64,000 bases of DNA from Symbiodinium natans (Eukaryota; Sar; Dinophyceae; Suessiales; Symbiodiniaceae): contig CAJNDS010000412.1 of assembly GCA_905221605.1 (NCBI GenBank), positions 48,501 through 112,500 of the forward strand. Direction: 5' to 3'. Below, piece by piece: positions 30,516 to 32,646 of the stretch; within the stretch, counting starts at the first letter, position 1; every line of letters begins with the position of its first letter. The translations under genes were made by a program, and so were the position numbers. The notes below the pieces were generated by a model. The model made no database searches and was not told where the DNA came from. It saw only the letters and a list, made by a program, of their open reading frames with translations.

Positions 30516-32646
30516 GGTGTTGTTTTCGTGGGCACGAAGGTTGGGGCAGTGTTGGCTTGGGCAGGGAAGCCTGCGCAGGTGCGAACGCTCCTGCATGGCA
30601 AATACTTCGAGAACGACTTCTCGGGTTGGCAGATGCCGTTTCCTTTTGAGCTGACGAGTGGAGCCCAGTGTCCCTAGGTAGGCCCCTGTGGGACATTTTG
30701 TACTTTCCCTTGTGGGATTTTAGAGGGTCCTGTTCTGAGTATGTTCCTTACGGGCAATTTAAGAGGATCACATTCTGAGAATGATCCTTCTGGGCTTTAG
30801 AGGATCATATTCTGAATTGTGATATTCCGGACACATCTTTCAGGGGGTTTTAAAGAGCCATCCGAGGTCCCATCTGCACCTTGGGGGAGTGTGGTGACGT
30901 GAACTGTCCCACATACCGGCCGAAGTACCCCGAAGTGAGGGCCGCCATCGAGGAGGTGGTCGTCCAGCAATCCTTGCAACTGCTGGCCCAGCCAGAAGCT
31001 AAAGGAATCAAGACCTACGTGTCCGTGGGTGCTGGACTGCTGGCCCAGGATTGGATCATCCTAGAAAAGATGAGAGCCGCGGCTGTGGAGTTGCAACCTT
31101 GCCGCGCCGTGTTTGTGGAGCTTCGAACAGCTTCCCCGGCTTTGGCGTGTGAAGGTCGTAGATTCACCGCCGAGGACGGGGGAATTGACCTGTCCCAGCT
31201 GGGTTTCGCATCCCCCTTGGGCCCGGAGTTCTCTTTCTCTGCTTTCGTCACCTTCGAGGGCGCTTCCTGTTGTGGCTCTCGCCTTTTCGATTTTGGGAAT
31301 TTTGATGGCGAGGATGAAGAGGAGCAGGACAACATCTTCGTGGATGTTCTCCCAAGCCCAGGTGGAGATCCTGCCGCACCCGGCACACTAGTGTTTAATG
31401 TCCGACGAGGAAGCGGGGACGATGTCCAGATGATTGCAGCTGGAGGTGCTTGGGTGGCTGGCCAGCCGCACCTCTATCTCTTCAGCGTCAGCGCGACCGG
31501 CATGATGCGTATTTACATAGATGGGCAGCTGGCCGTCTCACAGCAAGGTCACCCTCCCAAGCGACTGGAGCGAAGGCAGCTGTATGTGGGCAAGTCCGCA
31601 GCGTCTAGTGGCATCTTCTGCGGCGAGATGCGAAAGATCCAGGTGTGGGACTACTGCGTGGACAGTGCCAGTGTTGACGGCGTGTTTGCAGACGAGACCG
31701 AGCGTGCCTTGACGCAGTTCACCTCCTGGTTTGCTCCTTGGTAGCCCAGTGGTACCCTTTTCCCTAAACCCTAAACCCTAAACCCTAAACCCTAAACCCT
31801 AAACCCTAAACCCTAAACCCTAAACCCTAAACCCTAAACCCTAAACCCTAAACCCTAAACCCTAAACCCTAAACCCTAACCTAAACCCTAAACCCAGTGG
31901 TACCCTTTTCCCCCCTTTTGTTTTGGGTCATGGCATCCCTTCTAAAGTAATTAGAACCCCAAAAAGGGGTTGCCCTTAGTCTAATATTTAGGGTTTAGGG
32001 TTTAGGGTTTAGGGTTTAGGGTTTAGGGTTTAGGCTCATATGAGTGGTTGTCAAAATTATGGTCCCTTTCTGGATCCCATTATAATATGGCACCCAATAT
32101 TTAGGGTACCCCAAAAGGGATCATAACTTTGACAGCCACCCCTAGTATGGTTCCTAGGGTTTAGGGTTTAGGGTTTAGGATTTAGGGTTTAGGGCTACCA
32201 AGGCTCAGGATTTGACGGTCTACACGTTCGCGAGCTTGGCTTCCTACGCTGCGGCCGTGGCGGAAGATCGCCGCTTCGAGGCAGACCTCTTGCTGCAAGT
32301 CGATGTGCATGAGGAGACTTGGTAGCCCAGTGGTGCCCTTTACTTTTTTCTTTTCTTTTTTTTTTTGGGGGGGGGTGGGTGGGTTTTGGGTTCCCTTATA
32401 AAGTAACCAACCCCCAAAAAAATGGGTGCTCTTATCAGAACATGGCTATGCTGGGCTACCAAGGAGATCGATGGCTACGACGACTTCGTGAAGAAGGTGC
32501 TCAGCCCGCAGGGCCTCGCGCTAACGTTGGGAGGGCCCGGGAAGAGCTGGCGAAGGCAGGGGGCCAAGGTCCTCGAATTCCCGGTGCAGAATGAGATCTT
32601 AGAGAAGATTCGGGCGCGAAGCAAGCTGCTGGACTGTTTTGCTTGA
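30516..32646 (+). CDS. LamG-like jelly-roll domain protein, four exons
   Basis: Exons: about 30516-30669, 30867-31732, 32203-32313, 32464-32646 (stop TGA 32644-32646). The frame is continuous across all three joins. The large exon holds a concanavalin-A/LamG-like domain (FSFSAFVTFEGA, SRLFDFGNFDG, then HLYLFSVSATGMMRIYIDGQ and MRKIQVWDY), a fold that binds sugars or proteins. Before it lie FSGWQMPFPFELTSG and a Cys-containing linker (CPICTLGECGDVNCP). The C-terminal 100 residues (VHEEIDGYDDFVKKVL...) are not recognised. The 5' end is missing; 30258-30360 may hold an earlier exon. All three introns are CT...AG elements with 4-bp duplications. No signal peptide or membrane segment is visible in what is here. 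Confidence 0.75.
30670..30866 (+). mobile_element. introner, family E-like (GT-AG), 197 nt
   Basis: The element CTAGGTAGGC...GCCATCCGAG (30674-30866) is flanked by GTCC at 30670-30673 and 30867-30870. The interior holds about three copies of a roughly 40-bp unit around GAGGATCA-ATTCTGAGAATG. The join completes TGT CCC ATC in frame. Confidence 0.75.
31763..31893. repeat. telomere-type (CCCTAAA)n tract inside an introner
   Basis: About 18 units with one TAACC variant. The 17-bp sequence AGTGGTACCCTTTTCCC of the host element is present on both sides. Confidence 0.95.
32045..32147. mobile_element. family D MITE nested in a family E introner
   Basis: The ends GAGTGGTTGTCAAAATTATG and CATAACTTTGACAGCCACCC are inverted repeats of the D type. 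Confidence 0.75.
32314..32463 (+). mobile_element. introner, family E (GA-AG), 150 nt
   Basis: The element CTTGGTAGCCC...GGGCTACCAAG (32318-32463) has perfect 11-bp inverted ends and is flanked by GAGA at 32314-32317 and 32464-32467. Removing 32314-32463 gives CAT GAG GAG ATC GAT in frame. Confidence 0.85.

Follow-up and report, generated by a model that had tools for sequence, protein, structure and literature searches.

Our analysis indicates that the three introns in the recognisable part of a LamG-like gene of Symbiodinium natans are introners, which came from two transposon-like families and which take their donor from the duplicated target and their acceptor from the element itself; we put the probability of this reading at about 0.94. 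The gene lies on the + strand of the window, that is, the whole stretch of 64,000 nucleotides that was analysed, on a contig of 3,396,986 bp (C1) in the 759-Mb assembly of 2543 contigs that served for the genome searches. Four exons are recognisable, the last of them ending in a TGA stop at 32646, and the spliced protein matches Pfam Laminin_G_3 (E 1.5e-7). When the three elements are removed, the coding frame is restored at every join and the joined exons form a single stop-free frame to this TGA, in agreement with the preliminary description, in which all three joins kept frame. Upstream of intron 1, the frame meets a stop in TTTAGGG-type repeats near 30520, leaving the 5' end of the gene undefined, so that a further intron upstream is likely; "all three introns" therefore means the three within the recognisable part. 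Since a mean of 14.7 introns per gene is tabulated for S. natans (PMC10666404, Table 2), three introns per about 1.3 kb of coding sequence are not an unusual load. Elsewhere on the + strand, the window holds unbroken ORFs for a glycosyl hydrolase family 3 protein (20568-22502) and for an RCC1-repeat protein (35330-36643).

Each of the three introns consists of one copy of a 4-bp duplication and an element that starts with CT, ends with AG and has inverted ends, and the second copy of the duplication, perfect in every case, follows directly at the other edge (Table 1). Intron 1 (30670-30866) is GTCC plus a 193-bp element (CTAGGTAGG...CCATCCGAG), whose inverted ends are imperfect, followed by the second GTCC. 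Intron 2 (31733-32202) is GCTC plus a 466-bp element (CTTGGTAGCCC...GGGCTACCAAG), then the second GCTC, and intron 3 (32314-32463) is GAGA plus a 146-bp element (CTTGGTAGCCCA...TGGGCTACCAAG), then the second GAGA. Direct reading thus bore out the duplications around CT...AG elements that had been described before. Because the duplication stands on both sides, a cDNA would read alike for several cut positions; the GT/GC/GA...AG register was chosen by the known dinoflagellate rule, and the sequence alone does not force it. In this register each donor (GT, GC or GA) is the dinucleotide with which its duplication starts and the acceptor AG is the end of the element, as had been proposed, and these are probably the junctions that are spliced. 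Intron 2 owes its length to TTTAGGG-type arrays within its element. There, a CCCTAAA array has on either side a copy of the same stretch of about 20 bp of element sequence (CCCAGTGGTACCCTTTTCCC; 31745-31764 and 31893-31912), which looks like an insertion of telomere-type repeats accompanied by a duplication.

Table 1. Parts of the LamG-like gene and of its three introns, in window positions.
Feature	Position	Strand	Remark
5' GTCC copy of the target duplication, putative donor GT of intron 1	30670..30673	+	
Family A element, body of intron 1, putative acceptor AG at its end	30674..30866	+	
3' GTCC copy, opening bases of exon 2	30867..30870	+	
Exon 2 of the LamG-like gene	30867..31732	+	bears the Laminin_G_3 match
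5' GCTC copy of the target duplication, putative donor GC of intron 2	31733..31736	+	
Family B element (CTTGGTAGCCCAGTGG...GGGCTACCAAG), 466 bp, body of intron 2	31737..32202	+	
3' GCTC copy, opening bases of exon 3	32203..32206	+	
Exon 3 of the LamG-like gene	32203..32313	+	
5' GAGA copy of the target duplication, putative donor GA of intron 3	32314..32317	+	
Family B element, 146 bp, body of intron 3	32318..32463	+	nhmmer E 1.8e-27, this copy being among the 46 used to build the model
3' GAGA copy, opening bases of exon 4	32464..32467	+	
Exon 4 of the LamG-like gene, stop codon included	32464..32646	+	

The preliminary description had assigned all three introns to one element type and had read them as a burst of intron gain, and neither claim was supported. 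Introns 2 and 3 belong to family B, with CTTGGTAGCCCAGTGG as their common left end and GGGCTACCAAG as their common right end, while intron 1 belongs to family A, which has a different interior and relatives of its own. A 16-mer from the left end common to introns 2 and 3 has 2867 exact matches in the genome (reversed control, 0), and a family B 19-mer searched at up to two mismatches has 8822 (control, 3). Among 94 family B copies that were read (92 of the first 100 listed and two in the window), a right end and a duplication with at most one mismatch are present in 55, and in the other 39 no right end with matching duplication was found within 900 bp. The family B consensus, made from 46 delimited copies, is 112 bp long. 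Family A has the left end CTAGGTAGGCC... and, in other copies, a right end near GGCCATCCTAG, and is found at 40 other places of the genome. Reading of seven other copies gave nine alignments, of which six, from six of the seven copies, run from the first base of the element, two reach its last base (L004 and L005) and one does neither.

Similar sequence thus occurs at many places and fills introns end to end; the filling was read directly in the three window introns and in the paralogue intron described below, and comes from the coding model alone in six family B copies. Family B also has the build of a MITE, namely inverted ends and a target duplication of fixed length, and this outside genes as well: the 4-bp duplication is exact in 35 of the 94 copies, and 41 of the 55 two-ended copies score as noncoding. 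A single burst that struck the window gene is improbable. All three of its recognisable introns are introners, as a burst would have it, but they come from two element families, and the copy in intron 3, the only one of the three to which the dating applies, diverges from the consensus by 8.9% against a family median of 9.2% (n=54), so that it is average-aged and its insertion does not look fresh.

A generic scan of the window for CT..AG elements with an exact 4-bp duplication and 11-bp inverted ends (at most two mismatches) found 8 places, four of them families A or B and four neither, whereas 20 Markov shuffles gave 1.2 on average. Only intron 3 was detected among the three introns, because the ends of intron 1 are too imperfect and because the right end of intron 2 abuts masked TTTAGGG repeats. 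Further family B copies, all scoring best on the + strand, lie at 12470-12585 (duplication ACTC, which cannot yield a GT, GC or GA donor), at 29023-29129 and at 44242-44885 (duplication GAAT). A family A-like element with the duplication GAGG at 13138-13304 is possibly another GA-donor intron, and a CT..AG element at 47817-48057 (duplication GTAC, ends CTTACTGGGGC/CTTATTGGGGC) is outside families A-C. Moreover, a fourth CT...AG family (CTACTATTTGCTTAAGAACCCC...) was seen with apparent 4-bp duplications (TAAT and TAAG) at loci L075 and L011, with a duplication matching at three of four bases at L034, and in decayed form at L059. A home-made gene finder run on the window was rejected: not one of its 32 predicted introns had a direct repeat of at least 4, and it missed the three studied here. 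We therefore claim no base rate of introners among introns.

A paralogue of the window gene (G000:C2322) aligns with it at 47% identity across nearly the whole protein, and two weak further matches on C2391 (33%) cover the LamG part alone. The alignment with the paralogue is gap-free around all three joins, save for an insert of 36 codons, which is an intron of the paralogue itself. At the positions of introns 1 and 2, the paralogue sequence continues straight across. Its own intron (L099, 1710-1817) sits 9 nt upstream of the intron-3 position in the coding sequence and consists of GTTC, a 104-bp element starting with CTTAGGGG and ending with AG, and a second GTTC. The window elements are thus absent from all three matching positions of this one paralogue, which supports the original view of the introns as transposon-like insertions with a donor from the duplication and an acceptor from the element's own end. 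The paralogue element represents a third family, family C. Of 308 candidates 40 were scored, and they gave 41 matches, the element itself counted, many of which span it from base 1 to base 104. Since the two genes, where they align, have four introns at four positions, four separate insertions are indicated, and the paralogue introner beside the intron-3 position represents an apparent near-parallel intron gain.

It is unlikely that the paralogue is a retrocopy stripped of its introns, in which case its missing introns would not show that the window gene gained any. Genes of dinoflagellates are reported to undergo retroposition commonly (PMC11453091) and the frame of the paralogue is continuous over the first ~350 aligned residues, but the window introns themselves are elements with duplicated targets, which require an intron-free target; if the paralogue were a retrocopy after all, only the argument from the paralogue would be weakened. 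Transposons, as is generally known, frequently sit within introns, so that the introns might be old and the elements later arrivals placed at their edges by chance. This is hardly credible, because each of the three introns is occupied by its element over its full length, with the 4-bp duplication coinciding precisely with the splice edges, and because the paralogue is without introns 1 and 2 and carries, 9 nt away from the intron-3 position, an element of another kind.

As to how introners would create such introns, we propose that short non-coding transposon-like elements of the two families insert into an exon and duplicate a 4-bp target, presumably mobilised by a transposase acting in trans. 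The transcript would then read G[T/C/A]NN-CT...AG-G[T/C/A]NN, and the spliceosome would use as donor the dinucleotide that opens the upstream duplication and as acceptor the one that closes the element, so that splicing out the element would give back the coding sequence that preceded the insertion. In coding sequence, copies would persist when the duplicated 4-mer happens to start with GT, GC or GA.

The duplications of family B copies are varied (TTAA, TATT, CCCT and others), so insertion is not aimed at donors. When two-ended copies were classed by codon-use scoring of their joined (spliced) flanks, a duplication beginning with GT, GC or GA was present in all 8 copies with coding flanks by the 3' copy and in 7 of 8 by the 5' copy, two of these 8 being the window copies, and one or two of them could score as coding by chance, since the same threshold was passed by 2.9% of 2910 randomly joined flanks. 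Among the other two-ended copies (55 in all), such a duplication was present in 9 of the 41 that are clearly noncoding and in 1 of the 6 with intermediate scores. An independent codon model, trained on window and paralogue ORFs only and applied with the window copies dropped, gave 6 of 7 coding copies versus 10 of 46 (p=0.002), or 5 of 7 versus 10 of 46 by the 5' copy (p=0.015); under this model the coding-scored copy L037 (CAAA) breaks the donor rule.

The same preference is evident genome-wide. Upstream of the 2867 exact copies, the 4-mer is G[A/C/T]NN in 865 cases versus 396 for the mirror pattern NN[A/G/T]C, and the non-donor control is flat (GGNN 91 versus NNCC 112; Fisher p=1.2e-10 for the contrast between the G[A/C/T] and GG classes). 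An excess of GT, GC and GA with a flat GG control therefore argues again for insertion that is not donor-aimed and for splicing that acts as a filter. The net excess of 469 in 2867 copies (16%; 543 if scaled by the GG control) gives an estimate of the number of family B copies working as sense introns. The first 100 listed G[A/C/T]NN copies begin with GT in 49, GA in 26 and GC in 25 cases, a mix that differs from the GC-rich one published for S. natans intron donors (GT 23.6, GC 58 and GA 18.4%; PMC10666404), and not all such copies are introns.

Family B copies also lie in same-strand blocks. Neighbouring pairs 1-200 kb apart share a strand in 134 of 142 cases among 447 listed places, which are the first-listed ones from six lists rather than all 2867, four of the lists having been chosen by flanking bases; among the first 100 listed places the count is 71 of 82. 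For family A, 13 of 49 places lie within 200 kb of a listed family B copy, and the strand agrees in 13 of 13, the window's own intron 1 included; a pattern search of family A for the neighbour test gave 15 copies, too few for a test of its own. For family C, 9 of 40 places are near a listed family B copy, and all 9 agree. A control MITE, probed with an inner 20-mer of the element (990 copies), has 54 of 100 listed places near a listed family B copy and agrees with it in strand in 27, and its own neighbouring pairs are on the same strand in 21 of 34. A first strand control, GTACCATGAACCTCCAAGTA (5011 copies), was dropped as an inverted end that is often found on both strands of one element. An ordinary cut-and-paste MITE is expected to have no orientation relative to its neighbours and should not form such blocks, and in this point family B departs from the MITE pattern.

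Where the strand of the surrounding gene can be called, the elements are mostly sense to it: at four settings of rising strictness, 19 of 22, 16 of 19, 14 of 16 and 12 of 13 loci agree, the calls being made with the codon model from window and paralogue ORFs only. This test replaced a first one (6 of 6 called loci, of 89), whose model was partly trained on the same loci. Long ORFs agree with the element strand at six family B loci (L021, the overlapping L029/L030 counted once, L036, L054, L082 and L097) and disagree at two (L031, and L061, which is partly masked). Within the window, five family B copies score best on the + strand, and all seven long ORFs kept are also on +. The blocks hold as well for copies with flanks noncoding on both strands (49 of 56 pairs less than 400 kb apart) and, among noncoding-flank copies, for those whose upstream 4-mer is not G-first (38 of 41 pairs), both by the first codon model. 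GG-first copies (all 91 listed) share a strand in 8 of 8 pairs closer than 400 kb and in 9 of 11 closer than 1 Mb, and they agree with the nearest listed family A, family C or NNCC copy within 400 kb in 14 of 14 cases. The surroundings of 46 insertion sites that did not score as coding revealed no asymmetric target motif, the strongest column reaching 0.27 bit.

These blocks arise either by purging of antisense copies even outside exons or by insertion oriented with transcription. Dinoflagellate genes are described as lying in co-oriented clusters (PMC11453091), and gene-strand switches are reported to be commoner in Symbiodiniaceae than in Amoebophrya (PMC7789003), so that such tight blocks are not fully expected from gene order alone. 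We give about an even chance to selection, by which antisense copies would be purged from transcribed DNA and the noncoding survivors would lie in introns or untranslated regions. Selection would fit the orientation of families A, B and C against that of the control MITE, and the mostly sense position of copies where the gene strand is callable. On the other hand, both ends of the element read ...AG, so an acceptor comes in either orientation; GG-first copies, which are unable to give a GT, GC or GA donor, are equally oriented; and in noncoding transcribed DNA an acceptor would be expected to be more harmful in the sense than in the antisense orientation. It is conceivable, though somewhat doubtful, that the insertion of introners is itself oriented with transcription, nearly every copy landing sense to the local gene block. 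Such insertion might be coupled to the transcribed strand, an R-loop or the direction of replication, or might proceed through an RNA copy of the spliced element.

The window gene offers a clean worked example, in which the origin of three introns with GT, GC and GA donors can be followed down to the single base. It also gives the reason for the initial G of exons that follow such introns: only a duplication that starts with G can supply a donor. The AGG acceptor motif is given for 97.1% of S. natans model introns (PMC10666404, Table 2), and intron gain by introners may account for part of this rule. Moreover, the strand blocks make it testable whether the strand is chosen at introner insertion or wrong copies are removed by selection.

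The splice-site design is already known from Symbiodinium microadriaticum, and the strand blocks are the part that merits follow-up. Like the S. microadriaticum introners of family 1 (Gozashti et al., 2022; PMC9860276, Fig. 2B legend), the introns studied here have a 4-bp target duplication, inverted ends, a 3' splice site AG within the element and a 5' splice site from the duplication. Unlike in that account, one gene here holds two families and its paralogue a third; the likeness drawn here is one of description. Strand blocks are not mentioned in that description (PMC9860276), and the literature consulted on introner orientation yielded nothing on them, which is not to claim their absence from print. 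Dinoflagellate introners are summarised as abundant and diverse (PMC11453091), with families in five dinoflagellates (Roy et al., 2023, as summarised in PMC11453091) and, in Polarella glacialis, 12,253 introner-made introns and 15 families of at least 100 (PMC11453091). Our elements are comparable to these, which by that summary comprise many families and thousands of introner-made introns. They are also like the introner elements of Amoebophrya A25/A120 (Farhat et al., 2021; PMC7789003), which are described with inverted repeats of 8-20 nt, direct repeats of 3-5 nt at the edges and no internal transposase. The introners of Amoebophrya, however, are described as a subset of introns with non-canonical splice sites, whereas those of S. 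natans would be spliced at GT/GC/GA...AG.
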